From Anthopleura xanthogrammica (taxonomy: Eukaryota > Cnidaria > Anthozoa > Actiniaria > Actiniidae), in contig OZ025217.1 of the NCBI GenBank assembly GCA_964019055.1, positions 4,324,617 through 4,388,616 on the forward strand: a stretch of DNA of 64,000 nt, given 5' to 3'. The notes under the pieces were generated by a model. It was given only the letters and a program-made list of their open reading frames with translations. It was not told the DNA's origin and searched no databases. Positions 25,557-61,700 of this stretch are shown here, in pieces; the first letter of the stretch is position 1, and each line of letters opens with the position of its first letter. Position numbers and translations under genes: made by a program.

Positions 25557-26258
25557 AAAGAAGACTATCTTGTATTAAGGTCCATGCACGTGACGTTTGT
25601 GGTCGTTTTTGAAGTATAGTTCCTAATTAACGTACTGAGTTCTTAACGTTGCTGTAGTTTTCAAGGTAATCATTTCTGTTTTTACAGTTGGCGGATACAA
25701 CTGTACTGTTTTCCAAACTGGCCAACTTCCACCTACGAGTACACATTCAGGCTACATTCAATATTCTATGGGTACAATCTTGCAACAGTCACATGCATTT
25801 TCATTTTTTAGGAGAAAGTATAGGAGAACCAATTACCAATGAAGAAGCAAACTCAGCTCATATATGTGGTTTATTCGAGCACCAGCGAGCCCGCGGCCAA
25901 TGCATGAGCTAAACAAGTGCAAGTAAGAATGCCGTAAGAGCAGATGGCTCAATTCGAATGCTAGAATGTTAAACTAACTGATATATTACTGGTATCATTG
26001 TTAAGTCATTTTGTAAAGCTATACGCCGATTTCAGAGAATTAACACCAATGATTGCATTTTGCTGCATTATTAGAAATCGAAACTACCACAAGAAAAATA
26101 GCGAAAGCCTGTTTGTACCTCAAAGTTTGAGTTTACTAGTGAAGACATCACGTAAAACCGGCATTTGCATATAATTGCCTAAACTTTTTTGCCATATTTG
26201 TAAAACATTTTCGATGGGAAACCAACCTGTACTTTATATTGCAGACCCTCACTGCCCA

Positions 26259-31261: not shown

Positions 31262-31343
<82 letters not shown>

Positions 31344-35299: not shown

Positions 35300-35464
35300 A
35301 TGAAATTGCTACTTTTGGTGTTGTGTCTATTTTTTGCACCAATTCATCTAAGCATGATGGAGTATCTGCTAGTGGGAGGCCCAGTTTGTCATCGTCGATT
35401 TTATCGCACCCGCGTGGATTTCATGATGATTTTAATCTAGAAATCATTCATTATGCCAAACAAG
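35300..35464 (+). pseudogene. decayed exon 1 of a BMP-prodomain-like secreted protein
   Basis: The segment aligns to exon 1 of the intact copies at 42184 and 55440. It keeps the start (MKLLLLVLCLF), the SGRPSLSSS stretch and the splice donor at 35465 (AAACAAG then GTATTA). The upstream 5' region is also shared (GGTAATCCATTCCTTAAGGA). A small deletion in the signal peptide puts the start and the later homologous stretch in different frames, so the ATG frame ends after 46 codons with unrelated residues. No exon 2 was found before 41,427. This is probably a dead third member of the family. Confidence 0.75.
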
Positions 35465-39717: not shown

Positions 39718-41247
39718 CTATAAGACTCGGCGGCTATTTTGTAAGCTGAAACGCATCATTGCGCATGTATGAGCAGGCTCATGTCCCATATTTCTGGCAA
39801 TGGATTCAAAACTGCTCATCATCGGCCTCAACTCATGGTTTACTGATATGGTGGTGGACCTAGAAGCTGTGTTGGTTGATTGCTGAACGGGAACTAACGC
39901 CGTGGACCCTTGAATATGGCTGGAAAGGACTTCGCTGCAGTGCAGAAGTTGAGCGGTCGAAGGACGAGTGTTGTAGTGAGCCAAGCTCTGCTCATTTCTA
40001 TGGCCAGAAATTGCCATTATATGGCGGTTAGGAACTCCAGCATTTGACCAGAGGGTAATTGCTGTGGCACGGACGGAGTGGTTAGTATAAACTCTTGAAA
40101 GTTGGGCTGCTTGACTAATTTCCTTCATCATATTGTCAAGTTTATTGATGCCGAGCGGCTTGTTGTCGTACCAAACGTCATGGGAAGGCGCCCAGTTTCG
40201 GCTGGGATACTGGAAGAATGCTGAACATTTGGGGTTGAGCTTGGAAATATAGAGCTTTACAGCTTTATAACCGTCTTTGGGACTTTCCGTCTCATACATC
40301 CTTGCATATTTTTCCGAGCTGCTGGTATCTTTCAGGCCACCTGGGTGGTTTTTAGACACTTCATCGTGAGCCATCGTTACGTAATTTCTCCCACTCGCAT
40401 CGATCTCAAGTTTAAAACTGGATTTCTGCAGTTCTCGCTGCCCTTCACGGCCTCGTCTGCAGAAAAAGAGAATGATATTAAACCAGACATTTCGAAGCGA
40501 AGAGACAGAGGGCCATTTAGGGAGAGTGATTCTGATGTTTTTAACTTCTCCAGGTCTTCATCTTCAATCGTTGGCTTGTGTTGACTGTTTTCTTTGCCGA
40601 CCCGCTTGAGTTGAACTAGCTGTGCGTCCAGCATCGAGTTTGATCTTGAAAAACTGGGGTCTGTCGACATCTTAAGATTTCTTGAGAACTGTGGCTGATT
40701 AAGGTATCTTTCGATGCCGTGGCGGAAACCTAGTAGGGTCTTCTTGCTGTACGTCTCGCCATCCTTTTTCCTAGCCTCTGCGTAAAATCTTCTCAGATTT
40801 GCGTCAAGTTGACCAATCGTCATGTTTTCCAACTGTGTTTGTATATTTTTCTCTTTACACCATGCTGTAAATTACAAGACAAGAGGTAATATTAAACTTT
40901 TAAATCAATTTATTGTGTAAGTACTTTTGTTTTCGTTCATTGTTTATCGTCAGGTTTCAATATTTCGTAAGTTTACTTTATCAATTTTAACTAGAAAAAA
41001 AACTGTTTAAAATCTGAAACTTACCCTTAAATGTAGAAACACACCAGTTAGTGTTTAACTTTGTCTTTTTTGATGCTTTGTCTTCAATAATTTTGTCTAA
41101 ATCTCGCTCAGTTAGATTAGCGAAGCGATTCGTATTTGATCCAGTTTTGTTTTGTTTATCTTTCTCAAGTTCTGATACATTCACGTTCTCTGAATCCGCT
41201 TCAAAGTTGAGAAACCCAAACTCAAATGTTGGGCTATTACTAGCCAT
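39718..41247 (-). pseudogene. Crypton-type tyrosine recombinase (DUF3504-like), frameshifted
   Basis: Exon 1 runs 41247-41025 from ATG (MASNSPTFEFGFLNFEAD) with a good donor. Exon 2 starts at 40864 and joins in phase (CVSTFK then AWCKEKN). The fold continues through ENMTIGQLDANLRRFYAEAR and ETYSKKTLLGFRHGIERYL. Near 40,495 a frameshift occurs: the frame on one side ends at 40377, while the other frame carries RRGREGQRELQKSS and then NHPGGLKD. The C-terminal part has the catalytic pattern of tyrosine recombinases: HSVRATA (Arg), SGHRNEQ (His-x-x-Arg) and AHY (nucleophile Tyr), ending at TAA 39718-39720. The family was domesticated into ZMYM and QRICH1 proteins in animals. The break and the presence/absence polymorphism between units favour a mobile, recently active element. 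Confidence 0.8.
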
Positions 41248-41427: not shown

Positions 41428-42960
41428 ATTTCTCGTAGAATCTTTCTATTTGAGCTGTTCGACATTTGCTATGGCACACTAACACTGGAATGGAAATAAT
41501 CAACAAAGAAAATCATGGTAGCGATCAAAGAAATTTTTGTTCGATAACATGCATTACGTCATGCATTCTTTATGTATCAAACAATGTGGCCAAAGGTACC
41601 AGGTGATTATGACATTACCATGGCTGAGTCGCGCAACTGCGATATCACACTACGATATTAAATGATTTCTATGTGCACTGAAATACTCATACGAAATATT
41701 CGTTATTCGACTATTTGATCCTCGTACGACTCAGATTTCTTCCAGCCAAGGTTGATATTTCTCACGTCGTTTTTGTTGCGGTAAAATCAATCGTGAATTT
41801 AGCGAGAGTTATTGGTGGATTGTGCTAAAATATTAACCAGGAAGAAGTACTTGAGTACAAAAGAACCCTCTTGGTCTCTCTCAGGTGGTCTCTTTGTTAC
41901 GATAAGTGCTTTTACAGAGACCTGAATAAAGCTTGTCAAAAAAACTTCAACACTTTAAAAAACCGTACACAAATTCGTGAAAAAAATTATAGAATTCGAA
42001 AAATGATTGGATAAAGAATTAGACCATGAAAACTCAACTGGTGAATTAGGTAATGCGTCGGTTTCCAGTTTTCAATAAAGAAGAGAACGTATCAGACACT
42101 AAACCATAATACAAGGTAATCCATTCCATAAGGACCGGAGTTGATCTACTTTTGATTTCTCTAAGTAAACCTAGTGAGTGAAAATGCTTCTTTTGGTGTT
42201 GTACCTATTCGTCTTTGCACCATTGATTTCATCCAAGCCTGCTGGAATATCTACTGCTGAAGACGAGATTGCAATTCCTGCTGAACTAAAACGAGAGAAT
42301 TCGCAACTCAATCGGAGGCAATTTCCCCAAGGATCTACCAACCCATCTGGCAGACCCAGTTTATCATCGTCACTAGGGTTGCACCTGTTGAGGTTGGCAC
42401 TAACTGAGGGTGCGAAACCCGGAATATATACTACTGGCTACGATAAACAAGGTATTATTGACCGAATGCCAATATGGCCGCATCTTCATTATCATAATTT
42501 TTCAAGTTCATATTTTAGTTGACCACTACATTAGAATTATAGATTAGAATGACATCAACAAAGTTAGAAAGTTTAAGACAAAAATATTAAATTCTTGAGA
42601 AGTTATGAGAATTTAAAATTTTTTGAAAAACACTACAACGAGGCTAGCAAGGAAGTAGATCACTGAACACATACAAATCTTTGTAATCTTTGTAATCTTT
42701 GTAAAATAGCTTCACTTGAATTCAATTTATAGCAATGAAACTTTCCAAAAATACATATATGTGTTTGCTCTTTCTAATGGTTGTATTTTTTAATTCGAAA
42801 AAAGTCAATGGCGGCCATATTGGCATTCAGTCTATAGCATGCACTACTCTTACCGGGCTAAATGGCGTATTATCTTTTTCTGGTAGGCATTCGGCGTTTA
42901 GCTTCCTCCTCAGTCATTAACATAAATCAGATTTCTAGATTTTTTCTATGACAAAATGAA
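41428..42960. repeat. segmental duplication block R2, copy A
   Basis: Matches 54668-56250 at high identity, including the 5' region, exon 1 and first part of intron 1 of the BMP-prodomain-like gene. Confidence 0.9.
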
Positions 42961-45900
42961 GGTATAATTTTTCTGAAACAGTCGAACAAAAAAAATCCCT
43001 TCTACATGTAGGGAATAATACGATGGCACAGTTTTATACGATATGGACGTCTCATTTCAGAGATATAAAAGTTTAAAATTTAAAAATGCAAATCAGATGA
43101 CATCGAGCCAGGATTCGTTTAAAATACGACCGTTACTATCCTGCAAGCTAATTCCAGTTTTCAATTAATAAATGATATTTGTTACCAAAATATATGTTGT
43201 AGTAGAGTTTTGGTGAGTTTCACGGCTTGAGAGTCACTGGCACACACAAGAAAAGAGGACAGATACCTGGGTGGACGTCATCTCATTTGCATTTTTAAAT
43301 TTTAAACTTTTATATCTCTGAAATAAGAAGTCCATAACCTGTAAAACTGTGCCATTATATTATATCCTACATGTAGAAGTGATTTTCAAACTAAACCGTC
43401 AGGGTTACGTTGATAACAATGCACTGCGCGTCGAAAACAATGCAATCCATCATTTTCTCTGCCAGGCAAAATGGCGGTTTTGTAGGTGAAGTTTGGGAAT
43501 CCAGTTCCATCGGTCTTGTTATTCAAGATAGAAGTTTTAAAGTCATCAAGATATGATGATAAGTAGTTATTTTATGCTTTTGGTGAGATTTTATAAATTC
43601 TTGTAACGAATCTAAGGTAAATTTCGTATGTAAAGAATGATATAGTCGCACTGTGCATTGTAGTTAGTCAGCGTCACATCCGGAAATACCTCGGTCCGGA
43701 CAAATACCCCAGTGGACTAACACGGTTATATGAAGCAATTTCTGATTGGCTCTCCGGCGACTTGTTTGATTCTAACACGATCTATGATTGGTCAACGAAC
43801 AGTAGCTCGTTGGTGACCAACGGCGCTAGTGCTGACCTTTACTAGTGAATAAAGCTCCAATTTCAATGTCGTTATGTAACTCGATTGTACTCGACTATGA
43901 TATTTTTCGTCGCTTTTCTTTGTTATTCATAGGCATTTATATCCCTAATATCCCCAGTAATTACTTCTGTTACATGAAAACACCAAGTCTTTGATCAATG
44001 ACTGGGATTCGGGCTCTTACTCCGTGTTGCAAAATCAATGCAGATAAGATGACAGGGAGCCCACTAAATTTAGATAAAAGAAAAAGGTGAAAATAAAATC
44101 GGGAAAAATCTACATTAATTATTATTTTTTTAATTTAAGGTCAAGATAGGATACCATAGGGGAATTATATACACGCATCAAGCATTCCGCGCTACTGCTC
44201 TAAGCGCATGCTCAGGGGATTAAAAGTGATTAAAACATTACGAGTCGTGAGATTTTTTATTTATAGTTCACTTAACAAAATTTTATAAAAAATGCGAAGC
44301 GAAGGCATTCATCCATCTTCATTGCCTTTGCTATAACCGACCCTTCTCCAAGAAAGCTAAGTCAAGAACAGCATAGAAAGTGTTAACGTTGCTGTAAAAG
44401 CTTTTTAAATTAGTATTTTATGGGTATGATTTGAACTACAAAATACTAGAAAATAATTTTACATCGCAAGTAAAAAGTCATTTTAATGCATGTTTACATG
44501 CTTACAACTATTGAATGACAGTACTGACAGCGAATCAAGAAGCGACTTTTCTTTGAAAACGTACTGTGAAAACTAAGCGAAAGTTGAGAGTTTAAGTTCG
44601 CTAAAATATGTTTTTTTCCTCTTAGCATTTGCTAATCACTGCAAAAAACACAATTGCAAAAATTCTTTCTTTTAAAACAAGTTAGCTGGACAACATCAAA
44701 AGGGATAAAAGCGACAAATATGTCGTTCAAGTTAAAAGTTTTGAAGTACAGCTTGCCGTGAACGAGTTGCCTGTGATCAGAATATGTGCTTTGGATAATA
44801 TTCCCTACTGTAGCTTGAAGAATTTCGCTGCTATTTTCTTTGAATGGTGAATTATCTGAAGATTTTATTATTTCAAGACTGGATTGACAACTTAGGATCA
44901 ATTAACTTGTGATAAATAGCTGAATTCGTCTCTTTACAACTACTCGACAGTTTGTCGGTAAGATTTGATCTTAACTATTTTAAAACAAAAAACGAGCCTC
45001 TACTCGCTGTGTTTTTTCGCTAAACGGAAAAAAATTTGCTTTAAAACTATTGTTAGCTGTTTTCTACATATTGTAATATTGTAGATGTGGTGTTGAATAG
45101 CATTTTCTGGTTACTAAAAATAGATATATCGCAAAGCCTTGTGGGATCGAAATGCGGACAAACATTGTAAAAAAAAGGCTTCGGCATGGAAAAGAAGATC
45201 AATATCAGTCGAAAAACTATGGTTTTTCCACGAATTCACCATTCCTCTTATCACTTCTTGATATCACTACCACTAGAATCCTCTTCGAATCAATTTTCTT
45301 ATTCAAATGTTTTAACTCCTTCGGAAGTCGCAAGATAATGGTCTTAACTAGGCCAAGGAAAGGAACTACGAACATGATTCTGTAAAAGTGGTATCAAGGG
45401 TAATAAGGGGAACCAGAATTAGAAACAACAAGACAAGAAAACATTGTTGCAGCATATTAGCATGTGTTTTTGGCTTGGCTTGTCCGCATTTCAGTTCCAT
45501 AATGCATCATTGTGACGTCATCCGTGGAAAGCGCTATTGATTTTTTAGAGAAAACCACACAAGACAACAGGTAAGAACATTCAAAACTCCAACTCAAATT
45601 GTTTGGCGAAAACTAGAAAGAAAAAAACGACTTTCTACTACAAAACATGATTTATTACGTCTTGAATTTGTCTAGTTATCATAATTTGAGGCCTTCCTAT
45701 GTGTGTATCGAACAGTTTTCTGATTTTTAGGGAATTGTACTGAAGAAATTTGCCGCTTTTGGCCGTGTTTCCATAGCAACTTAATAGGTACTCCTACGGA
45801 GTACAATTAACACTCTAATTGTACTCCCCTCGACCTCTATCGCCCTGCGTGGTTAAAATTCAGATTAAGCCAGGTTTTTTTAGCGTTTTTTTCCCTCCAC

Positions 45901-47401
45901 CGTTAACTGTTTATATTCCAAACTGATCGACATTGAAATTGGAGCTTTATTCCGGCTAGTAAAGGTCAGCCGTTGGTGACCAACGAGCTACTGTTGATTA
46001 ATCATAGATCGTATTAGAATCGAAAAAGTCGAGGGCCAATCAGAAATCGCTTCATATAACCGTGCTAGTCCGCAGACGGACTTTACCAAGGTATTTGTCC
46101 GGATGTGGCGCAGCTGGCTATAATCCTAGTTGACTAGGATTCTTTATTGTTATATACCAACTGTCAAAGTCCATTTTTCTCGTACTCTGATTGGGCGAGA
46201 GGGTAACACATGAACGTGGACAAGTTTCGATGTTTCCCCGGCAACGGCTCTCAGCGGGCAACAATATAATATTTCCCGGGTATTAAGAACACTGGAAGTG
46301 ATTTCACCGGAAGCCTAACTTTTTCTAATTTTTCAAAGTCAAGTAATTAACAAAAAAATCGGCTATGCCTCGGGAAACATCGTCGTCTCGGGACCACAAA
46401 ACACACTGTTTCCCTCGGTTCCATTTAATGAGTGTTTCGTTATATTAATATTACTTTCTATTTATTGTAACCTTAAACCCAGTCCCACTGGAAGCATCAA
46501 TAATCAAATGGAATGACAGCCATCACCTCCTATCGATCCTTGGCCTCACAAGGGAAGGGAGGGGAGGGGGGAAGGGGACTAGGGAGGAGGAAGGAATGAA
46601 GGGAGAGCTCTCCTTTCCCCTCCCCCTCCCTATCCCCCTCCCGTCCCAGTCCTCCTGAGAGCCTGTTGACAGACTAGATTCTCAACCGATTCCAGCCCAT
46701 TGATAAGTATTTTTATTCTGGCCGGAGACGTCAATTAAAGAAACAAATGTTTATTTCTTTTGTTAGATACAAGGAATGTGGGTGCCACTATCGATACCAC
46801 CAATGAAGCAATGTTCAAGTTCCAAATTACAAGGCCTTCTACTGATGTCCAAAAAGTCAATTCTGCAGAGTTTCACATTTATAAGAGAGCCATAGCTGTG
46901 AGCTCACCAAATGCAAATTCTGATTATATCCTCCATTTGATCGAAATCCGTCCTACTGGGCCAAATCGTTGTCTAGGGATTCGTAAACGTAGCATGAGTT
47001 CCTCCACCCATAACTGGGAAGTTTTTACCATATCAGATTCTTTTAAAAGGTGGTTTAGAAATGGGACAACCAACCGTGGTCTGCTTTTGACAACCATCGT
47101 GTCAGGGATAAAAGTACACCCAAACACGTTAGGCTATGTTGGTTTTGATGGACCAGAAGAAAGGCGTCCATTCATAGTTGTGGAATACCAAAAGAGATCG
47201 CAAAACGATGAAGAAAAAAGCAATGACAATGATGACGAAAAAGTTACGTCCAACCCCCAAGCACCAGAAAAAGACAATGACAAAGATGACGAAAAAGGCA
47301 CGTCCAACCCCCAAGCACCAGAAAAAGACAATGACAATGATGACGATGAAGGCACGTCCAACCCCCAAGCACAAGAAAAAGACAATGACGAAGATGACTA
47401 A
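42184..47401 (+). CDS. secreted BMP5-8-type prodomain protein without ligand, copy A
   Basis: Two exons, 42184-42451 and 46767-47401, joined in phase 1 (GYDKQ + DTRNV), giving 300 aa. Residues 1-17 or so (MLLLVLYLFVFAPLISS) are a signal peptide. Dibasic sites follow at LKR and NRR. Exon 2 reads like the second half of a TGF-beta superfamily prodomain: MFKFQI, NSAEFHIYKRAI, NWEVFTISDSFKRWF, NRGLLLTT, IKVHPNTLGYVGFDGP, RRPFIVVEY. This order and the HPN..GYVG.DGP..RPF run are typical of BMP5-8 prodomains. A mature ligand should follow, but the frame instead gives three 18-residue acidic repeats (SNPQAPEKDND) and TAA. The protein has one cysteine in exon 2, so there is no cystine knot. The ATG at 42184 is the first Met in this frame. 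Function unknown: secreted antagonist, matrix protein or decoy are guesses. Its 4.3-kb intron is full of inverted repeats. Alternative: a ligand exon could be spliced in, but none was seen downstream. Confidence 0.75.
42735..42920 (+). CDS. small secreted-peptide ORF or alternative first exon
   Basis: ATG 42735 gives MKLSKNTYMCLLFLMVVFF, a signal-peptide-like start, then KVNGGHIGIQSIACTT, 61 aa in total. Inside it TCTG followed by GTAGGC (donor at 42883) ends a 148-nt exon in phase 1, the same phase as exon 1 of the surrounding gene. It could therefore splice to 46767 as an alternative first exon. The matching start in unit B (55988) is interrupted after 20 codons by an indel. Expression is unproven. 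Confidence 0.35.
   Translation: MKLSKNTYMCLLFLMVVFFNSKKVNGGHIGIQSIACTTLTGLNGVLSFSGRHSAFSFLLSH
43010..43380. mobile_element. foldback element with about 95-bp arms
   Basis: The left arm contains GAGATATAAAAGTTTAAAAT and the right arm ATTTTAAACTTTTATATCTC. The outer parts CTACATGTAG are also shared. Confidence 0.85.
43655..46135. repeat. inverted pair of about 210-bp arms
   Basis: Arm 1 (43655-43880) includes TCGTTGGTGACCAACGGC and CTTTACTAGTGAATAAAGC. Arm 2 (45930-46135) is its imperfect reverse complement, with GCCGTTGGTGACCAACGAGC. A further copy is at 57220-57420. The 2-kb centre may be an inserted element. Confidence 0.7.
43998..44160 (+). mobile_element. tRNA-derived SINE, copy 1 (head truncated)
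   Basis: It contains GGGATTCGGGCTCTTACTCC, a box B relic, then GACAGGGAGCCCAC, TTTAGATAAAAG and AAAATCGGGAAAAATCTAC. The copy at 56465-56665 on the minus strand has the same body and a fuller tRNA-like head. Confidence 0.7.
47235..47398 (+). repeat. 54-bp coding repeat, three units (copy A)
   Basis: Each unit encodes SNPQAPEKDND with acidic spacers. The last unit has QAQEKDND. Because there are few stops in the other plus frame, a basic alternative frame (PTPKHQKK) also stays open through it. Confidence 0.9.
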
Positions 47402-47859
47402 GCACAGAACAAAAAAAGCGGCAAAGAAGACAACGACAGCACTTACAGTTTACAGTAAAATAAGACCCCCCGGCACGTTTGAGAGGAAGGGAGCTTATTG
47501 CAGTGATGGGGGTTATCGATTTAGCGAGACCCATGCAGAACGGCGTACGCCGTCAAGATAATATGCCATTTGATAACTTGCTTTAAACACGGTAAACTCA
47601 TGTTCAGGATTAAACTCGGCACTATAGCATTAAAATTATATGAATAAATATTACACGGTTTTGTGTGATTGATCTGAACTTCTAATAATGATCACAAATC
47701 ACTTTAACAAATGAAAGAGAATGGAGGCTTAATATTTTTTTCTCTAAAGGGAGGGGGGTGCGGATTGTCGTATCAGAGAGAGGGTGGGCATATATTAATT
47801 GAATGGAGTTGAGAAACGGTATCCCTGTTGTGCACCAACTAAGTTAGGATCTATCAAGG

Positions 47860-48470
47860 AAAGGAAAGGATTGCCGCAAAAACACAAGGTAGAAAAATAA
47901 TAAAAAAGAAATAAGAGGTGAATTGATAAGAAAAAGGAATAAAAAAAGCGAAAAGAAAAATAATTGAAATGAAAAATAATAACAGAAAAGAGAAAGGAAA
48001 AATAAAGGAAAGGAAAAGAAAAGACAAGTAAAAGAAACTGGGAAAGAGAAAAATAAACGATAAAAAAAATTAAGAAGAAACAGAAAGAAAAACTGAAGGA
48101 AAGTAACAAACTGAAAAGATGAAGAAAAAAAGAAAGAAAGAAAGAATGAAAGAAAGAAAGAAAGAATAAAAGAAAGAAAGAAAGAAAGAAAGAAAGAATG
48201 AAAGAAAGAAATGTAAATGTGAAAAGCAAAGACCGCATACAAAATGCTGAAGACCATACGTAGGATCTATGAAAGATCTAATCAGCTCACAGAGAAAATC
48301 ATGAAATATAAGGAATAGCTGAATACTACGTAGGAATTAAGACGCTTATCACAAAACCAACATGATAGAGCCAGAAAGAGCCAAGCATGCAAAGAAAGAA
48401 AGAAAGAGAGAAAGAAAGAAAGAATATTCATTTTAGTAGCTGACCCCATTCTTGGAAGCGTGCCCGGTAG
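47860..48470. repeat. purine-rich AAAG-type tract
   Basis: A long A/G-rich strand with AAAG and AAAGA runs. Reverse-strand frames rich in Phe, Leu and Ser are artefacts. In unit B the counterpart 59205-59480 is shorter. Confidence 0.9.
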
Positions 48471-48617
48471 CAGCAGTGAAGCGCCAGTTTGTCCTTCACT
48501 TCATGCAGGCTACAACGTGGTTTTACTACTTCTCGGATCCATGCCCCTTCCGGTGCCTTGTCCTCATATCCGGAGGCTGCATCATTCTTCTCAACAATAA
48601 GCTGAGATAAGCTGGAT

Positions 48618-49824
48618 CAGGGGCGGATCCAGGATTTTTGAGAGGGGGGTGACTGAGATCCCAAAACTTTGAATGTACTTTTATATAATATTCACGGAGT
48701 GCAAAGGGGTTCTGATCTGAAGTCCCAGGAGAACAATCTGATGGAGAGTTAGAACAATTTTGATACTATATAATGAACGCTTATTATAAATGTTGATTAT
48801 TTTAATTTATTATCTTCGCTGATAATAGGGTTGTTGCCAGGTTTTTATGTACTGTTCATTTAAATATTACATTACATGTTACAAATTACGCTAAAAAATT
48901 CTGGTTGGCTGCTGAGAGCAGTTTATTTAGTTTCTGTTTGTTTTTGGAAATCAAAATGAAGGAAAAAAAGGAAATTGAGTGCTAATTTGCTTCTGGTTAG
49001 CTCAAATTGAAAACAATAAAAATCATTACGTAAGCTGCTTATTTAGGCAGTTACTCTCACTATAAAATATATTTTGAAGACAGTTTTATTTTATCTTTAT
49101 TATTCAGTTATAAAGTTCTTACCGACGGATTGCGAAACTTCTGTTGTCCTTGTCTCAGTGCATGGTTGCTCATTCAAGCTCACTGAATTCGTAATAGAAA
49201 AACAGCTTACTGAGTTAAAGATGAAATATTTAATTTAAAGAAAAGCATTTTTAAAAAAGAGCATACCAGGTCCAGGGTTTGTTTTCTTTGCTTGGGGCTC
49301 GTAGGTTTCACATTCAGATTGCTTGCCATGTGCTCGAACGGATTGGTCTTCTTGACATTGACTAGTTAAAATCAAATTTCATTTTTGAAATATAACCATT
49401 AAATAATTCATTGACTTTGCAAAACTACTGCCGGCTCCACTCGTATTTAGCACGTTTTACTTACCTACTAGACTGGCTAAAAAACGAAAATAGTTTCTTT
49501 TAATTTGCTTTGATATGATCGTAAAGCTCTTCGATCGAAGCGTTTGGGTCTAGATCTTGCTCAGGTGTACAAACGCGTTTATCAGACATACACAGGAAGC
49601 CCAAAAAGGCGGGAAAGTAGAAAAGGCGGGAAAGCAGATATGGGGCAGAAAGCCGTGATGCCTGTTACACGCGAGAAATGAGACAGCTTGAATGAAAAAT
49701 GATATCAAAATTTAAAAAAATGAAAAAAATCTAAAAAGCTGATGTCAAGATCAAAAGTAAATATTCAACTGACCAAAAAGGGGGTGACTAATCACCCCCG
49801 TCACCACCCCTAAATCCACCCCTG
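48618..49824 (-). mobile_element. 1.2-kb TIR element with 5-bp target duplication, copy A
   Basis: The ends CAGGGGCGGATCCAGGATTT and CCTAAATCCACCCCTG are inverted repeats, flanked by TGGAT on both sides (48613-48617 and 49825-49829). The minus strand has an ATG frame at 49589-49500 (MSDKRVCTPEQDLDPNASIE) and stretches flanked by splice-like signals (49131-49165, 49265-49370). It looks like a deleted autonomous transposon; hAT-like ends are possible. Confidence 0.75.
49500..49589 (-). pseudogene. residual transposon exon, copy A
   Basis: 29 codons from ATG: MSDKRVCTPEQDLDPN, then ASIEELYDHIKAN, stop. It sits near the outer end of the 1.2-kb element, as a first transposase exon would. Too short to assign. 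Confidence 0.3.
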
Positions 49825-52800
49825 TGGATATTATATGATACTAGCTGATACTAATAAGAAAACGCTAATTTCTCGAAGGTTCTTGTTATAAATACCGATA
49901 CGTGACAAGGAAATCTACAGAAAATCATACAATAACAATGATAAACAATTGATAAAGGACTTTGGTTTCATGACTGAACAGGAATAGGGTGTGACGACAT
50001 GAACGTCATTTACACTAAACGCGCCAAAAGTGCTGACAAATCGATTGACCCGATTACGAAACGAGAAGCCGAGCACACCATGTCGTTTCCGGAATCATTC
50101 GATTATCGATTACTTCTTTGTGCTTTACTTCTGGGATTTGTTAAGACTCTTCCACAGTCCTTGCTCGGCCGCTGCACTCTCCACGCTATGGGACTGTAAC
50201 GGTAGAATGGTAGCGTTTCCCTGATTGGCTGATATATCTACTGTTCTAAGCTCCTCTCTCATTGGTTGACCAGTGAGTCCTTCTTATTTTGAAAGATCAT
50301 TGTTTACTAACAGTACTAGTATTTTTACAAAGGAAAGCACGATGGATTGTTGTCGAAAGAAAGTTTTTGTTGAAGCAAGCACGTCAACATTGGTAAATCT
50401 AAGCAGATACAATGGCCTAGACAGACAAAGCGATCGTATAGATCTGTATTAGAGGGATATCCTAGGTCATTTCAAATCGAATGATTACGAGTTTGACGTT
50501 GAATGTTTACCACTTAAAATCACATCAAGCAAATTCTGGATACACAAGGTACCCAAAGGTATAGAAAATAAATAAACCACTCTCAGAACTATATATGCTT
50601 ATAGTGCTTTTTATGACCCTTTTATACTAAACCGATAAGAAATATAAAATTAAATCAGTGAGGGCGGCTAATTCTAAAATCCCGAGATTTAACAAAAAAT
50701 CGTCCGAAAAGCTGAAAAGAATAAAAATAAAAACAACTTCAAAGTATTTTTAAAAAATTTCAAAAGAAAAAACCCTGATAATCGTTGAAAATAAAGGTAG
50801 CCAGCTTGGGCTTCCTGTGATATATTTCGGTTCTCAAGGCATGATGGGTCCAAGATTCCTGGACCCAGAAGCCCTTTCGGCATTGTACCGTTTGCACCCC
50901 TTACCAAAATATTTAAGTCCTAGCGTTTTAAATCATCTCTGAAATATCGTAATACATAGCTCATGATAGCAAATTCGATTAACGTTGTGGTCGCTAAAAA
51001 AAGCCTAAACATTATTTGCTTTATTTACCAACAAACTTCACTGTAGGCTAATTTTCATAATTCCGCTCTCAAATAAAGCTTTAGACTTTAGGCTTTTTGT
51101 CATACACAACGTTAATTGAATTAGCTATAAATTATATATACCAGATCTAGAAGTATTCTATTTCTAAAGTAAATCTTAACAGGCAGTAGCTTAATATATA
51201 TTTCTTTGGCACTTGTACTAACTTTGCAAATCAACAGAAACGAACAGATTTTTACGATATTTGGCCCAATTATACAAGAAACGCATTGCTTTGTGTCTTT
51301 TCCCGTAAAATCGAAATATCATATTTTGGAAGCATTTCTGTGATTTTTTTGAATCGATTCTAGACCACGTCTTGCCAATATTCAGCTTCCAAACGGCAAC
51401 TTATTTGCGTTCTTTGACGTATTACTAATTTAGATAAGTTTTGGTTTCTTACCGGCGTATGCACATGGCATTGGAGTAGTATTTTTGACTGTTATCGACA
51501 TACTATGGTCTTTTACATTCGCTCTGACATAATTCGAAATAAATATATTAACAATTTGTCAGACATGTCTTATGAGACAATTTTTAACATTTTAACCATT
51601 TTATGAGATAAAACTCAAAAGCGTGTTTTTTTCTTCAAAACTTGTACTTAGAATGTTGTCTTGAAATTATATTGAAACTTGTCGACAGAAACCTTGGCCA
51701 CTTACGTCTCTTCATGTAAAATTTACAGTTACAAATGACTATGTAAATTTTCGATTAAAATTCTTAAGTCTCGAGGGACAGACCATCACATACATGTTCT
51801 TAATGAACAGAACATTTCATTGTATTTCTGCTATTGCAAAGCTAAAAAAATATGTCGTATATCACTTTTATTCAAAGATTCATTCTTTCTTGGGAGAGGA
51901 CTAACAAAAAAACGTAGCAAACAAATGCATACAAACAATGGTCTCGTGATTATGACAGTTATATTCTAAATCGGTTATAGAATAAACACTCGTGCTTTAT
52001 GGGATTTAAAGCTCCTCGCAATGATAGAAACCCGGGGGGGGGGGGATTCCGGGGGTAAAGTATCGGGTATGCTCGTCGTATCTCTGTATAGGGGTAGAAA
52101 TTAGCGATTTGGTATCTTTTAGGGTCTTAAAAGCGACATTCTGTAAAAATCGACCAAATATTGGCACAAGTCAAAAAATCGATTTCGCTCATATTTTGTT
52201 TATTGATAGCCCTTAGTATGAAGTACATCCTGGTGTTTTTAGTTTTGAAAAATTTTACTTGGTTTTCGAGAAATTTACGAAAATCGATTTCGGCCCTACG
52301 CATCGAAAAAATGCCCGCCGAGATAACGGAATTTAGTGTAAAAATAAACGCATCGTACAGCTAAATCACATATCTATATTTTTGGTCGGGTATTTTTTAT
52401 CAAAAGAATGGATATTCCTCTTCCTTTTGGTTGTATTTAGATTAGAATATTTGGCGTTTTAAGATACGAAAAAAATTATCTACGAAGCTAATTATTTCCA
52501 AAGTTCACAAATGCAAATTAAGGCCTTAAAATACGGCTTATAAAAATACGGCTTGTATATATATGCTCTTTTTCCAAATCATAAAAAACCTACAACCAGA
52601 GGATTATCTAATGTACTTCTATTAGAATCAAAAGAAAATTCTCTGGGCAAACCATTTTTACTGTTCCGTTGAGGACGCTTTTCTGTCCCTATATTTGACG
52701 ACAAATGAAGATGCAAATTGTGGTCTCGTAATATCAATGCTCGGAGCTCTAAATCCCTAAAGCACTCGCGTTTATTCTCTAACCCTTACTTAGCAATACG

Positions 52801-52865
52801 TTAAACTAAATAGCGAATTACAATAAAACATGATATTCGTCAAAACAATCATTGGTTAGACTAAA

Positions 52866-54078
52866 CTATGACTACATGTCAGGGATTTCTAACATACAGG
52901 TTGTAACATGTAAACATCAATAATCAATTGCTAAAATCAATGGTAACATAATTCGTAATGTATAAAGTTAGATGATTGGTTTAACGAGGTTGGAGTCCAA
53001 TAAACCGTAAACTGATACTAGTAGTTTTTAGCAGTAGACAACATGTGATTCCTAGAAAACCTGTCACTCGTTTCTATTGTTCTCTAAAATCTTTCCAATA
53101 TTTTGAATTTTATTCCTTTACGGCTTAATGTTTGTTAGCGCACATCCAGCTGTACGAACTAAGCGCGGAAAGGATTGTTGTCGTAATTCAAGCGGCCCTC
53201 GCCCGAGTCTTAAAAGTCATATATCTCACAGAATTTGAGGAGATGGATCGCAAAGATTTACTTTAATTTCTTAAACAACACGTATACTTCAACTTTTTTT
53301 CTTTGAAATTCTTTGAAACGCTTGTTTTTGTATTGGGAAGAGACTTGGAGCAAGGGCCGCTTGGCTAAGCATCGAAGCGCGCTGTGATTGGACGGTTCGT
53401 GCGTGCTCCGGACACCTGGATAGACCAGTTAAGGTTACTGGAGACCTTCAGGGGTATCTTTCGTTTAGCGCGAAAGGAGGTCATATACAAAACGTGAATT
53501 TGGTTTGATAATGTTCAGTATTTTACATAAACCGTAATGTTTTGACGCTGACCAACCTGAATATTATATTTCAAAACGTTTTTCTACTTTTACTTGGCTA
53601 ACTTTAGTTATATATTAAGAATACATATATGCCGATGACAGAACCCTTGAGTCAACACTTGCCATAATGATGTAATCCTCACACCTTACAAACACTTTTC
53701 TAAAGAGATTTAAGAACCCCTGCTTAGAAGTTTTTTCTTAATCAGGCTCCTCGTGTTCCTTGTTTTTGGCGCTAACAAACATTAAGCTGTAAAGGAATAA
53801 GACTCAAAATATTGCAAAGATTTTAGAGAACAATAGAAATGACAAATATTAACCTAAGTTTAGTCAAAAGGAACCAGTGACAGGTTTTCTAGGAATCACA
53901 TGTTGCCTACTGCTAAAAACTACTAGTACCAGTTTACGGTTTATTGGACTCGAACCTTGTTAAACCAATCATCTACCTTTATACATTACGAATTATGTTA
54001 CCAGTGAATTTAGTAATTGATTATTGATGTTTACATGTTACAACCTGTATGTTAGAAATCTCTGACATGTAGTCATAG
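52866..54078. repeat. large inverted repeat flanking about 630 bp
   Basis: The left arm 52866-53140 starts CTATGACTACATGTCAGG. The right arm 53770-54078 ends CTGACATGTAGTCATAG, with indels between them. The left arm also restarts at 63923, at the end of the window. Confidence 0.85.
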
Positions 54079-54667
54079 TTGAGTGTAGCTAACTGTCGAG
54101 GGTCGAGGGTACCAAGTCCACGGGCGCCAGAGTCGCCTCCACGTTTGTAAAACTAACGCTTTATTTTGTTTTCTTGAACGGTCTAATAAAACTGCTTTGG
54201 TACGGCTGACCTTTAGTAGTGAATAAACATCTAGCTCCGATTTCAATCTCGTGATGTTTGTCTGTTTAAAATTAAGAACCGATCGTGTGTCACTCGGAAT
54301 TAATCGGTAACGCACTTAACGAGGCCCCATGTTGTGTTTCAGTTAGAAGAAATCATTTTAAAATGATTTAAAATGGCACCTTGAGCTCGATCCCTGTATT
54401 CTGTTCAAACGTGGAATTTCACATGAGCCGAACGCATTGAAAACAGTGAATTATTTGATAATGATAATTTGAATCATTGATATTATTTGGTTCACTTCGG
54501 CTCATGAGAAGATTGACGGTTGAACTTGTCTAAATGGTGGACTTACATGTACACAACTCACTCTATTGTGTGTTCAGAGACGCAACAGCTTAATATTTAA
54601 TGGTTTGATAATATAATATAATATATATTTATTTAGAACCCAAAAACAATCAGTCTTCTAGAAGTTT
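53474..54667. repeat. segmental duplication block R1, copy B
   Basis: Counterpart of 37246-38380. It includes about 90 extra bp (around 53885-53970) that are also in the left arm at 52970-53060 but missing from copy A. Confidence 0.85.
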
Positions 54668-55439
54668 AATATCTAATTTGTTATAGAATCTTTTTATTTG
54701 AGCTGTTCGACATTTGCCATGGCACACTAACACTGGAATGGAAATAATCAACAAAGAAAATCATGGTAGCGATCAAAGAAATTTTTGTTCGATAACATGC
54801 ATTACGTCATGCATTCTTTATGTATCAAACAATGTGGCCAAAGGTACCAGGTGATTATAACATTACCATGGCTGAGTCACGCAACTGCGATATCCCACTA
54901 CGATATTAAATGATTTCTATGTGCACTGAAATACTGATTCATACGAAATATTCATTATTCGACTATTTGGTCCCCGTACGACTCAGATTTCTTCCAGACA
55001 AGGCTGATATTTCTCACGTCGTTTTTGTTGCGGTAAAATCAATCGTGAATTTAGCGAGAGTTACTGGTGGATTGTGCTAAAATATTAACCAGGAAGACTG
55101 AAGTGATCGTAAAGAACTCTCTTGGTCGCGTCTCTCTCAGGTGGTCTCTTTGTTACGATAAGTGCTTTTACAGAGACCTGAATAAAGCTTGTCAAAAAAA
55201 CTTCAACACTTTAAAAAACCGTACACAAATTCGTGAAAAAAATTATAGAATTCGAAAAATGATTGGATAAAGAATTAGACCATGAAAACTCAACTGGTGA
55301 ATTAGGTAATGCGTCGGTTTCCAGTTTTCAATAAAGAAGAGAACGTATCAGACACTAAACCATAATACAAGGTAATCCATTCCTTAAGGACCGGAGTTGA
55401 TCTACTTTTGATTTCTCTAAGTAAACCTAGTGAGTGAAA

Positions 55440-58400
55440 ATGCTTCTTTTGGTGTTGTACCTATTCGTCTTTGCACCATTGATTTCATCCAAGCCTGCTG
55501 GAATATCTACTGCTGAAGACGAGATTGCAATTTCTGCTGAACTAAAACGAGAGAATTCGCAACTCAATCGGAGGACACTTCCCCAAAGATCTACCAGCTC
55601 ATCTGACAGACCCAATTTATCATCGCCACTAAATGTGCACCTGAAGAAGTTGCTTCGTATACGTGGGACTAAGAGCTTGAGAGGTTTAAAGATCACTGGC
55701 TACGATCAACAAGGTATTATTGACCGAATGCCAATATGGCCGCATCTTCATTATCATAATTTTTGAAGTTCATATTTTAGTAGACCACTACATTAGAATT
55801 ATAGATTAGAATGACATCAACAAAGCTATAAAATTTGAGACAAAAATATTAAATTCTTGAGAAGTTATTAGAATTCTTAAAAAATTTGAAAAACACTACG
55901 AGGCTAGCAAGGAAGTAGATCACTGAACATACACAAATCTCTGTAATTTTGATTCCAAATAGCTTCACTTGAATTCAATTTATAGCAATGAAACGTTCCA
56001 AAAATACATATTTCTGTTTGCTCTTTCTGATGGTGGTACTTATTTTTTAAGATTAGGTTTTTATTTCCGTATAAGTCAATGGCGGCCATATTGTCTTTAG
56101 TCTATAGCATATTGCTATAGTCTATAGCATATTGCTATAGTCTATAGCATGCACTACTCTTACCGGGCTAAATGGCGTATTATCTTTTTCTGGTAGGCAT
56201 TCGGCGTTTAGCTTTCTCCTCAGTCATTATCATAAATCAGATTTCTAGATTTGTACGAGTAAAAAAATCGGTAAAAAAATGCACTAGAACTTTTTTTTCG
56301 CTGGCGCCTTTGTTTTCCTATATGATTCCTCTATGGTATGGTATGTGTGGATTTGTGTCAATATACTTTTACAAGGGAGGAAAGTCCAGTCGCCATCTTG
56401 AAAACACGAGCAAAGTATGTTGACACTATTGCATTTTTTAAGGATTTTTTTCCCCCCATTCGTATTATAGAGAATATTATCTTCATCTTGAAATTTAAAA
56501 AAATAATTAAAGTAGATTTTTCCCGATTTTATTTTCGCCTTTTACTTTTATCTAAATTGGGCTCCCTGTGGTAAGATTTGGTGCCTTGCAACACAAAGGA
56601 CACAAAGTAAGAGCCGGGATTCGAACCCGAGACCTTCTGCACTCGTATACCCGAGCTAACTGTTGGAATCTTCTGAACAAAATAGTGTTTTGTGTGTTGT
56701 GATGAAGTTCGTTAGCATTTTCTGCCGAATGGAATTGAAAAGCAATTGTTTAAGGTTTCCTTCTGTGTGGGAATTGACTAACAATGATCTCATTGTTGAG
56801 AGTCCTTTTGGGTCTTCAGTGATATTGCTTTGGTGTATAAACCTCCTCAATCATATAATAAGTCTGTTAAATACCTCGAACCTAGGCTTTTATCCATATA
56901 CATCCCTGGGGCATGGCTAAAAGCCTCGGTTCTCGGTATTTAACTCTTCCGCTATGATGATCAGTATCGTACTTAGCTGCTCCTCAAGGTCCTCCTCCTG
57001 TAACCCCTTTTCTACTCCCGATATGTACTATTCCGGTTACAGGCTCTGCTCAAAGGCTCTCCCTCGGGAATCGTTTCAGTGTAAAAATAATAATAAACAA
57101 AATATTAGTTGACCTTTGAAAAGTAATATCTCTATCGCCCTGCGTGGTTAAAATTCAGATTAAGCCAGGTTTTTTTTAGCGTTTTTTCCCCTCCACCGTT
57201 AACTGTTTATGTTCCAAACTGATCGAAATTAAAATTGGAGCTTTATTCACTAGTAAAGGTCAGCCGTTGGTGACCAACGAGCTACTGTTGACCAATCATA
57301 GATCGTGTTAGAATCGAAGAAGTCGAGAGCCAATCAGAAATCGCTTCATATAACCGTGTTAGTCCGCTGGGGGTCGGAACAAGCTTTTGTCCGGATGTGA
57401 CGCAGGCTATAATCCTAGTTGACTAGGATTCTTTATTGTTATATACCAACTGTCAAAGTCCATTTTTCTCGTACTCTGATTGGGCGAGAGGGTAACACAT
57501 GAACGTGGAAAAATTTCGATGTTTCCCCGGCAACGGCTCTCAGCGGGCAACAATATAATATTTCCCGGGAATTAAGAACACCGGAAGTGATTTCACCGGA
57601 AACCTAACTTTTTCTAATTTTTCAAAGTCAAGTAATTAACAAAAAAATCGGCTACGCCTCGGGAAACATCGTCGTCTAGGGACCACTGGCAAAACACACT
57701 GTTTCTCTCCTACTGGAAGCATCAATACTCAAATGGAATGACAGCCATCACCTCCTATCGATCCTTGGCCTCACAAGGGAAAGGAGGTGAGAGGGGAAGG
57801 GGACTAGGGAGGAGGAAGGAATGAAGGGAGAGCTCTCCTTTCCCCTCCCCCTCCCATAGCCCTTTCCCCCTCTGCCCCTCCCCCTCCCCCCTCCCCCTCC
57901 CGTCCCAGTCCCCCTGAGAGCCTGTTGACAGGCTAGATTCTCAACCGATTCCAGCCCATTGATAAGTATTTTTATTCTGGCCGGAGACGTCAATTAAAGA
58001 AACAAATGTTTATTTCTTTTGTTAGATACAAGGAATGTGACCACTATCAATACCACCAATGATGTAATGCTCAAGTTCGACATTGATATAACGCCTTCTG
58101 GTGCTCGAGGAGTCAAATATGCAGAGTTTCACATTTATAAGACCTCCATAGCAAGCTCATCAAATGCAAGTTCTGATTATACCCTCGGATTGAACGAAAT
58201 CAGTCCTACTGGGCAAAATCATCATCTAGCGACTCGTAATCTAAACATGAGTTCCCAAGGCTGGGAAATTTTTAATATATCAGATTCTTTTAAAAAGTGG
58301 TTTGGAAATAGGGCAACCAACCGTGGTCTGCTTTTGACAACCACCAAGTCAGGGATAAAAGTACACCCAAACACGTCAGGCTATGTTGGTTTTGATGGAC

Positions 58401-58705
58401 CAATAAGCCAGCGTCCATTCATAGTTGTGGAATTTAAACTATATGTTTCGAAAAAGGATGAAATAAAAAGCAATGACAATGATGACGAAGATGTTACGTC
58501 CAACCCCCAAGCACCAGAAAAAGACAATGGCAATGATGACGAAGAAGGCATGTCCAACCCCCAAGCACAAGAAAAAGACAATGACAAAGATGACGAAGAA
58601 GGCATGTCCAACCCCCAAGCACCAGAAAAAGACAATGACAATGATGACGATGAAGGCACGTCCAACCCCCAAGCACAAGAAAAAGACAATGACGAAGATG
58701 ACTAA
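55440..58705 (+). CDS. secreted BMP5-8-type prodomain protein without ligand, copy B
   Basis: Two exons, 55440-55713 and 58026-58705, joined in phase 1 (GYDQQ + DTRNV), giving 317 aa. The signal peptide and first 40 or so residues nearly equal copy A. After the NRR site the sequence diverges strongly (TLPQRSTSSS, LKKLLRIRGTKS). Exon 2 keeps the prodomain frame: MLKFDIDITP, YAEFHIYK, WEIFNISDSFKKWF, NRGLLLTT, IKVHPNTSGYVGFDGP, QRPFIVVEF. It ends in four acidic 18-residue repeats, one more than copy A. Exon 2 has no cysteine. Intron 1 is 2.3 kb. Introns and 3' flank are almost identical to copy A while exons are not. Function unknown; same alternatives as copy A. Confidence 0.75.
55988..56050 (+). 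pseudogene. interrupted counterpart of the 42735 small ORF
   Basis: It starts MKRSKNTYFCLLFLMVV and stops after LIF because of indels relative to unit A. Downstream GTCAATGGCGGCCATATT is kept. Confidence 0.5.
56092..56152. repeat. 20-bp near-palindromic tandem repeat
   Basis: Two and a half copies of TCTATAGCATATTGCTATAG, single in unit A (42830). Each unit is almost its own reverse complement. Confidence 0.85.
56251..57128. other. unit-B-specific intron segment
   Basis: It contains the full SINE copy (56465-56665) and a region at 56940-57110 that is not in unit A. No exon was recognised. Confidence 0.5.
56465..56665 (-). mobile_element. tRNA-derived SINE, copy 2
   Basis: Minus strand: GTTAGCTCGGGTATACGAG resembles a D arm with box A. 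TCGGGTTCGAATCCCGGCTC is a clean box B and T arm. Then comes a body shared with 43998-44160 (CAGGGAGCCCAATTTAGATA and AAAATCGGGAAAAATCTAC). Confidence 0.75.
58497..58702 (+). repeat. 54-bp coding repeat, four units (copy B)
   Basis: Units alternate SNPQAPEKDND and SNPQAQEKDND. The expansion relative to copy A is in frame. Confidence 0.9.
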
Positions 58706-61700
58706 GCACAGAACAAAAAAAGCGCCAAAGAAGACAACGACAGCACTTAAAGTTTACAGTAAAATAAGACCCCCCGGCACGTTTGAGAGGAAGGGAGCTT
58801 ATTGCAGTGATGGGGGTTATCGATTTAGCGAGACCCATGCAGAACGGCGTACGCCGTCAAGATAATATGCCATTTGATAACTTGCTTTAAACACGGTAAA
58901 CTCATGTTCAGGATTAAACTCGGCACTATATAGCATTAAAATTATATGAATAAATATTACACGGTTTTGTGTGATTGATCTGAACTTCTAATAATGATCA
59001 CAAATCACTTTAACAAATGAAAGAGAATGGAAGCTTAATATTTTTTTCTCTAAAGGGAGGGGGGTGCGGATTGTCGTATCAGAGAGAGGGTGGGCATATA
59101 TTACTTGAATGGAGTTGAGAAACGGTATCCCTGTTGTGCACCAACTAAGTTAGGATCTATCAAGGAAAGGAAAGGATTGCCGCAAAAACACAAGGTAGAA
59201 AAATAATGAAAAAGAAATAAGAGGTGAATTGAAAAAAAAAAAGAAAAAGGAATAAAAAAAGCGAAAAGAAAAATAATTGAAATGAAAAATAATAACAGAA
59301 AAGAGAAAGGAAAAATAAAGGAAAGGAAAAGAAAAGACAAGAAAAAGAAACTGGGAAAGAGAAAAATAAACGATAAAAAAAATTAAGAAGAAACAGAAAG
59401 AAAAACTGAACACAAAACCAACATGATAGAGCCAGAAAGAGCCAGGCATGCAAAGAAAGAAAGAGAGAAAGAAAGAAAGAATATTCATTTTAGTAGCTGA
59501 CCCCATTCTTGGAAGCGTGCCCGGTAGCAGCAGTGAAGCGCCAGTTTGTCCTTCACTTCATGCAGGCTCCAACGTGGTTTTACTACTTCCCGGATCCATG
59601 CCCCTTCCGGTGCCTTGTCCTCATATCCGGAGGCTGCATCATTCTGCTCAACAATAAGCTGAGATAAGCTGGATCAGGGGCGGATCCAGGATTTTTGAGA
59701 GGGGGGTGACTGAGATCCCAAAACTTTGAATGTACTTTTATATAATATTCACGGAGTGCAAAGGGGTTCTGATCTGAAGTCCCAGGAGAACAATCTGATG
59801 GAGAGTTAGAACAATTTTGATACTATATAATGAACGCTTATTATAAATGTTGATTATTTTAATTTATTATCTTCGCTGATAATAGGGTTGTTGCCAGGTT
59901 TTTATGTACTGTTCATTTAAATATTACATTACATGTTACAAATTACGCTAAAAAATTCTGGTTGGCTGCTGAGAGCAGTTTAATTTGTTTCTGTTTGTTT
60001 TTGGAAATCAAAATGAAGGAAAAAAAGGAAATTGAGTGCTAATTTGCTTCTGGTTAGCTCAAATTGAAAACAATAAAAATCATTACGTAAGCTGCTTATT
60101 TAGGCAGTTACTCTCACTATAAAATATATTTTGAAGACAGTTTTATTTTATCTTTATTATTCAGTTATAAAGTTCTTACCGACGGATTGCGAAACTTCTG
60201 TTGTCCTTGTCTCAGTGCATGGTTGCTCATTCAAGCTCACTGAATTCGTAATAGAAAAACAGCTTACTGAGTTAAAGATGAAATATTTAATTTAAAGAAA
60301 AGCATTTTTAAAAAAGAGCATACCAGGTCCAGGGTTTGTTTTCTTTGCTTGGGGCTCGTAGGTTTCACATTCAGATTGCTTGCCATGTGCTCGAACGGAT
60401 TGGTCTTCTTGACATTGACTAGTTAAAATCAAATTTCATTTTTGAAATATAACCATTAAATAATTCATTGACTTTGCAAAACTACTGCCGGCTCCACTCG
60501 TATTTAGCACGTTTTACTTACCTACTAGACTGGCTAAAAAACGAAAATAGTTTCTTTTAATTTGCTTTGATATGATCGTAAAGCTCTTCGATCGAAGCGT
60601 TTGGGTCTAGATCTTGCTCAGGTGTACAAACGCGTTTATCAGACATACACAGGAAGCCCAAAAAGGCGGGAAAGTAGAAAAGGCGGGAAAGCAGATATGG
60701 GGCAGAAAGCCGTGATGCCTGTTACACGCGAGAAATGAGACAGCTTGAATGAAAAATGATATCAAAATTTAAAAAAATGAAAAAAATCTAAAAAGCTGAT
60801 GTCAAGATCAAAAGTAAATATTCAACTGACCAAAAAGGGGGTGACTAATCACCCCCGTCACCACCCCTAAATCCACCCCTGTGGATATTATATGATACTA
60901 GCTGATACTAATAAGAAAACGCTAATTTCTCGAAGGTTCTTGTTATAAATACCGATACGTGACAAGGAAATCTACAGAAAATCATACAATAACAATGATA
61001 AACAATTGATAAAGGACTTTGGTTTCATGACTGAACAGGAATAGGGTGTGACGACATGAACGTCATTTACACTAAACGCGCCAAAAGTGCTGACAAATCG
61101 ATTGACCCGATTACGAAACGAGAAGCCGAGCACACCATGTCGTTTCCGGAATCATTCGATTATCGATTACTTCTTTGTGCTTTACTTCTGGGATTTGTTA
61201 AGACTCTTCCACAGTCCTTGCTCGGCCGCTGCACTCTCCACGCTATGGGACTGTAACGGTAGAATGGTAGCGTTTCCCTGATTGGCTGATATATCTACTG
61301 TTCTAAGCTCCTCTCTCATTGGTTGACCAGTGAGTCCTTCTTATTTTGAAAGATCATTGTTTACTAACAGTACTAGTATTTTTACAAAGGAAAGCACGAT
61401 GGATTGTTGTCGAAAGAAAGTTTTTGTTGAAGCAAGCACGTCAACATTGGTAAATCTAAGCAGATACAATGGCCTAGACAGACAAAGCGATCGTATAGAT
61501 CTGTATTAGAGGGATATCCTAGGTCATTTCAAATCGAATGATTACGAGTTTGACGTTGAATGTTTACCACTTAAAATCACATCAAGCAAATTCTGGATAC
61601 ACAAGGTACCCAAAGGTATAGAAAATAAATAAACCACTCTCAGAACTATATATGCTTATAGTGCTTTTTATGACCCTTTTATACTAAACCGATAAGAAAT

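Follow-up and report, generated by a model that had tools for sequence, protein, structure and literature searches.

A tandem array of ligand-less BMP5-8 relatives in the sea anemone Anthopleura xanthogrammica

Genes A and B and the four-gene array

The window analysed here, a 64,000-nucleotide (nt) stretch of contig OZ025217.1 from the Anthopleura xanthogrammica assembly GCA_964019055.1 (positions 4,324,617 to 4,388,616), contains two genes, A (42184-47401) and B (55440-58705), which encode the arm half of a BMP5-8-type prodomain but no recognisable growth-factor ligand. Both are two-exon genes on the plus strand with open reading frames, and their predicted products, 300 and 317 amino acids (aa) long, share one layout: a hydrophobic start, a segment ending in NRR, a variable segment, the arm domain, and an acidic tail built of 18-residue repeats. 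Exon 1 of gene A (42184-42451) encodes the signal peptide within the nearly invariant residues 1-45, which end in NRR, and then the diverged residues 46-89. It is joined across a phase-1 intron (42452-46766; donor CAAG/GTATTA, acceptor TTGTTAG/AT) to exon 2 (46767-47401), which carries the arm domain (PF00688), the acidic repeats and the stop codon. Gene B, also designated B1, is built in the same way from exon 1 (55440-55713), a phase-1 intron (55714-58025) with identical donor and acceptor, and exon 2 (58026-58705) with arm, acidic repeats and stop.

The acidic tail spans 47216-47398 in A (61 aa, 38% aspartate plus glutamate) and 58466-58702 in B (79 aa, 39%), with an isoelectric point (pI) of 4.05 in both cases, and the number of repeats varies among the copies. 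Over the whole proteins the acidic share is 15-16%, the arm itself being basic. A contains one cysteine and one N-glycosylation sequon, B no cysteine and seven sequons. The poly-A signal AATAAA lies 242-244 nt past the stop in both genes, at 47643-47648 behind A, where a GT-rich stretch is next to it, and at 58949-58954 behind B. The preliminary description of this locus, made by a model from the sequence, had proposed a signal-peptide exon spliced in phase 1 to an arm-and-acidic-repeat exon that ends in a stop, and this structure is confirmed for both genes. The secretion stated there is predicted for A and B from the visible signal sequence, as read by eye.

To place the two genes in their genome, we searched the window's own 290-Mb assembly with the profiles PF00688 and PF00019, with the homologous protein P0001 described below, and with the B arm. 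Exon 1 matched four places in the genome, every one on the contig of the window, here C12, and the tandem family noted earlier extends to an array of four genes, A, B1, B2 and B3, with all four frames open. Only 3 positions in 11,057 bp distinguish the B1 unit from the B2 unit (99.97% identity). B3 is 98.5% identical over the first 4.7 kb, and with 317 codons aligned its coding sequence shows 3 differences; its tail is longer, giving a product of 336 aa. The 104-kb stretch that holds the array contains no N, which together with the regular spacing supports a real array with a provisional copy number for B.

Kinship to BMP5-8 and loss of the ligand

The Pfam scan matched PF00688, for which the curated cut-off is 25.8 bits, in A at 49.5 bits (E 5.8e-13, profile positions 110-240 of 242) and in B at 54.2 bits (E 2.1e-14, positions 101-240 of 242), and listed no further domain above cut-off in either protein. 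The cystine-knot ligand PF00019 was not listed for A, B or P0001; the positive control, the genome's own BMP5-8 exon, yielded both PF00688 and PF00019. A Foldseek search with a predicted three-sequence model placed TGF-beta-family pro-forms in the first 38 of the best 50 rows, with a best E of 1.5e-5. As modelled, the arm has the fold of a TGF-beta propeptide, and the product probably folds as an arm beta-sandwich of this type. Searching the PDB by sequence gave no match with a single-sequence query, and BMP9 (E 0.098) and TGF-beta-3 (E 1.7) with a two-sequence profile. Two protein-homologue searches returned nothing. The one protein homologue recovered is P0001, whose frame is open and which is identical to A at 151 of 168 positions and to B at 115 of 165; it was counted in 10 public contigs and is evidence of another variant elsewhere.

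After the array itself, the best genome matches of the B arm are two genes on contigs C7 and C6 (5.9e-13 and 2.4e-11), followed by BMP2/4 (0.25). From their motifs we take these two genes to be BMP5-8, that is, BMP5/6/7/8. A tree places the array as sister to the two, with support of 82/84. The array also possesses the phase-1 intron that separates straitjacket and arm in BMP5-8; the donor CAAG/GTA and the phase are common to the array and both genes, and the distance from the intron to the first FKF strand is nearly equal in all of them. A signal peptide and the arm motifs EF..YK, W..F.I, GL.L and G..G..GP...PF are shared as well, whereas the array differs from BMP5-8 in having no ligand that we could find, no R..R site behind the arm, no recognisable straitjacket, and, instead, an acidic repeat tail and four tandem genes. 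The array is a ligand-less relative of BMP5-8 in four copies. The BMP5-8 type of prodomain named in the preliminary description was borne out by the family scan, the comparison with BMP7 and BMP2, the genome searches, the tree, the intron and the structure search.

The absence of the ligand held up equally well. The genome profile searches, whose counts are lower bounds, found at least 13 arm-half matches, four of them on C12 without a ligand and nine elsewhere, and each of these nine arm exons has a PF00019 ligand 70-469 nt downstream. None of the at least 10 genomic PF00019 matches lies on C12. Both BMP5-8 genes have an R..R site behind the arm, B has no such site, and the single one in A (184) lies inside the arm. 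A hidden ligand exon at the array was considered and rejected: in tblastn searches of the window with the human BMP7 ligand, and of the window and a further 40 kb with the genome's BMP5-8 ligands, nothing rose above chance except a remnant of 11 residues.

This ligand-like remnant, PCCAPTKLGSI, lies on the plus strand behind A (47823-47855) and again behind B (59129-59161); its 11 codons match the genome's BMP5-8 ligands at 9 of 11 residues, and outside of them no ligand is recognisable downstream of either gene. Its CC is located 637 nt past the arm in A and 699 nt in B, compared with 664 nt in the C7 and 340 nt in the C6 BMP5-8 gene. Across a whole window the match is unremarkable, as, whichever query set is used, 2 of 100 random 64-kb sequences attain 25.0 bits. 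With the search confined to the same strand and the first 1.5 kb downstream, random sequence reached the B score in 1 of 2000 trials and the A score in 7 of 2000, and none of 94 genomic stretches reached even the A score. The two remnants are copies of each other and represent one observation. As the location control was devised only after the remnant had come to notice, we regard the remnant as suggestive: it is probably a fossil of the lost ligand and does not amount to proof.

The preliminary description had spoken of prodomains; the arm half is recognisable in A and B, the growth-factor-binding straitjacket is not. Neither protein has a Pfam match to PF00688 profile positions 1-100. Exon 1 of B shows a weak likeness to exon 1 of the C6 gene, equalled by 3 and 2 of 1000 shuffles, and the other three pairs of array and BMP5-8 first exons do not stand out from shuffles. 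A straitjacket exon hidden in the intron was also rejected, since searching the window with BMP7 30-155 and BMP2 20-140 produced no convincing match; the best, at E 0.56, fell outside the array. The motifs RPRP and SAP..M..LY, present in the first exon of each BMP5-8 gene, are both missing from A and B.

Several related sequences were seen in the same genome. A second copy of a BMP5-8 exon 1, with signal and straitjacket, is located about 415 kb from the C6 gene (L045, G000:C6:15151500-15161499) and is 95.5% identical to the exon there; neither arm nor ligand was found beside it in the 10 kb read, a stretch that contains N, so that loss is not demonstrated. One TGF-beta ligand (L028, G000:C1:14922698) has no prodomain match nearby in the genome search, and two BMP-like genes on different contigs (L004 and L005, C1:13520282 and C8:3607924) form a close pair.

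The arm also resembles the bacterial DNRLRE domain (NF033679). Over the stretches compared (46767-47200 and 58026-58462), B aligns with this model for 127 residues at 30.7 bits (E 3e-7) and A scores 17.6 bits. The human BMP2 arm reaches 36.6 bits, above the curated cut-off of 34, and the BMP7 arm 33.3 bits. Both array arms stay below that cut-off and fit PF00688 far better. The likeness between BMP arms and DNRLRE is a possible clue to where the TGF-beta prodomain came from.

Coding divergence and surroundings of the array

A and B are nearly identical in the 5' leader (99.5%), codons 1-45 (99.3%) and the 3' untranslated region (99.3%), and identity falls to 73.8% in codons 46-89, 83.5% in the arm and 93.4% in the tail. 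At the nucleotide level there is 1 difference in the 135 positions for residues 1-45, and there are 34 in the 130 for residues 46-89. The alignable ends of the intron are 92.0% and 95.4% identical, its middle not being alignable (57.6% over 868 aligned columns). The arm coding sequence has 68 mismatches in 411 positions versus 39 in 857 in the neighbouring intron end (p 8e-12). Of the indels that separate A from B, all 7 in coding sequence preserve the frame, compared with 6 of 19 in the flanks and alignable intron ends; poorly aligned stretches, where 18 of 41 indels are in frame, were left out of this comparison.

The ratio of nonsynonymous to synonymous substitution rates (dN/dS) in the arm exceeds 2 between A and B1 by every method used: 2.23 (NG86), 2.14 (LWL85), 3.81 (YN00) and 3.08 (maximum likelihood, ML). 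The A-B3 pair, which is not independent of A-B1, gives 2.54 (NG86) and 4.26 (ML), whereas the two BMP5-8 genes compared with each other give 0.10 (NG86) and 0.13 (ML), at a dS near saturation (1.4 and 1.0). Neutral simulations reached the A-B1 arm value in 4 of 1000 runs, and dN exceeded dS in all 500 bootstrap samples of the arm; for exon 1 alone the excess is not significant (bootstrap fraction 0.71). The array is under coding constraint, with an excess of replacement change. Flanks that are nearly the same around coding parts of greater age suggest that gene conversion or unequal crossing-over has acted, and that selection has at the same time held the two coding sequences apart; this selection may be driving A and B towards different binding surfaces.

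The array is flanked by traces of further rearrangement and by other genes. One more copy has left a relic exon 1 (35300-35464, plus strand), in which the start, a portion of the signal region and the donor CAAG/GTATTA can still be made out, with an in-frame stop before the donor; tblastn found no exon 2 for it, and it is too decayed to appear in the genome-wide exon 1 search. The 3' flank of A (48350-52943) is 99.8% identical to 59411-64000 behind B. In the A unit, tyrosine-recombinase open frames (DUF3504, Phage_integrase, weak QRICH1) occupy 39718-40871 on the minus strand. The window holds no equivalent of this stretch in the B unit, a pattern that would fit the insertion of a mobile element. 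Upstream lie ABC transporter exons (26175-33230, plus strand, two ABC_tran matches), presumably of an ABCC-like gene, and a mitochondrial carrier domain (8102-8812, minus strand) which we assume to be SLC25A46-like. Long simple-repeat arrays, open in several frames, are found at about 2290-2590 and at 30290-30470.

Origin and possible roles of the array

The reading that we favour, with a probability of roughly 60%, is that a BMP5-8 copy turned into a secreted arm-domain protein under diversifying selection. A BMP5-8 gene would have been copied at the DNA level, since the intron is kept. In the copy, the cystine-knot ligand, the furin linker and any recognisable straitjacket would then have disappeared, while the signal peptide and the prodomain arm were retained and the acidic 18-residue repeats were added; further copying would have produced the four tandem genes now found on a single contig. 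The arm alone might serve as an extracellular binding module for a matrix, cell-surface or foreign partner, and the acidic tail as a soluble, cation- or matrix-binding extension. Two points weigh against this reading. The dN/dS values derive from one divergent pair only, which is thin ground, and the BMP-7 interval known to bind fibrillin-1 overlaps the array arm only in part. According to a study on human BMP-7 (PMC4933460), the prodomain piece 74-292, which is devoid of the N-terminus, still binds fibrillin-1 through a site mapped to 74-184. The array arm corresponds to BMP7 156-282, and because of this partial overlap matrix binding by the arm is a guess.

The same study bears on whether the free arm damps BMP signalling by pairing with a full-length BMP5-8 prodomain or by sticking to the growth factor. 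The arm is clearly BMP5-8-like, and the BMP-7 pieces 218-292 and 241-292, mostly within it, have affinities of 27 and 39 nM for the full prodomain; the longer pieces 74-292, 116-292 and 185-292, however, do not bind it, nor do they bind the growth factor measurably, for which the N-terminal PHRP is required (PMC4933460). The RPRP of both BMP5-8 genes is the counterpart of this PHRP clamp. Mainly because A and B lack the clamp motif and N-terminally cut BMP-7 pieces do not bind, by analogy they are unlikely to hold a BMP growth factor, and a BMP trap is unlikely too. Binding or mimicking BMP ligands was the weaker of the roles offered in the preliminary description, as neither clamp motif nor straitjacket is recognisable, and a dN/dS above one is not expected of a conserved decoy; a role in BMP regulation is improbable. 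An acidic matrix or mineral protein, its tail binding calcium or mineral and its arm anchored in the matrix, would fit the low pI, the variable repeat number and the fibrillin-1 binding, but the whole protein is only modestly acidic and such a role does not require fast arm change. Titles and abstract openings of the papers listed point to no protein of this kind, and the one shell-proteome passage concerns full myostatin. We consider this role unlikely, slightly more so than that of a secreted effector of mucus, immunity or venom, to which the tandem array, the invariant leader, the fast-changing mature part and the sequons would be suited, as in arms-race genes. An effector, too, is unlikely on present evidence: no other Pfam domain and hardly any cysteine accompany the arm, and the leader identity may stem from recent gene conversion at the 5' end. 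Between the acidic matrix and the recognition protein that the preliminary description had also put forward, the dN/dS above one leans towards recognition.

That the array instead goes back to an ancient free-standing propeptide protein, without a ligand from the outset, would agree with the likeness to DNRLRE and with the choanoflagellates, in which, as PMC6040629 reports, TGFb_propeptide occurs in proteins without a ligand. The specific BMP5-8 kinship, the common intron and phase and the ligand-like remnant speak against it and make it very improbable. Least probable of all is that the genes are pseudogenes in decay, or that the assembly shows two alleles as duplicates. The near-identity of the B1 and B2 units and the stop in the relic exon 1 would be in line with this, but all frames are open, coding indels stay in frame, dN/dS lies above one and not near it, and the stretch is free of N.

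Compared with known systems, the array as a BMP5-8-derived arm-domain family is a new variant of ligand-less propeptide proteins, which are already known from choanoflagellates. There they occur where no ligand domain is known (PMC6040629), whereas the array appears to descend from a ligand-bearing BMP5-8 gene. In cnidarian genomes, published counts of propeptide and ligand domains are close, e.g., 6 and 7 or 9 and 10, and give no hint of large ligand-less families in the species concerned (PMC7642931). No ligand-less BMP5-8 family in an animal is described in the titles and abstract openings of the papers listed. Free prodomains such as the latency-associated peptide and the myostatin propeptide likewise act apart from their ligands. 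These are, however, cleavage products that keep the straitjacket, while the array consists of genes of its own without a recognisable one. What is new here is that leader, untranslated region and alignable intron ends are 92-99.5% alike between A and B and the mature coding sequence less so, with an arm dN/dS of 2.1-3.8.

A more specific proposal, which we hold tentatively and think somewhat more doubtful than sound, is that a morphogen gene gave rise to a recognition or effector family by discarding its ligand, using the arm as a free binding module and multiplying as tandem copies on which diversifying selection acts; a fossil of the ligand would still lie downstream. Prodomains are usually viewed as servants of the growth factor, and here one seems to have been freed and to be changing fast. 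As an experiment of nature, the array could show what the arm domain does alone, and how a conserved morphogen gene yields a new family of secreted proteins.

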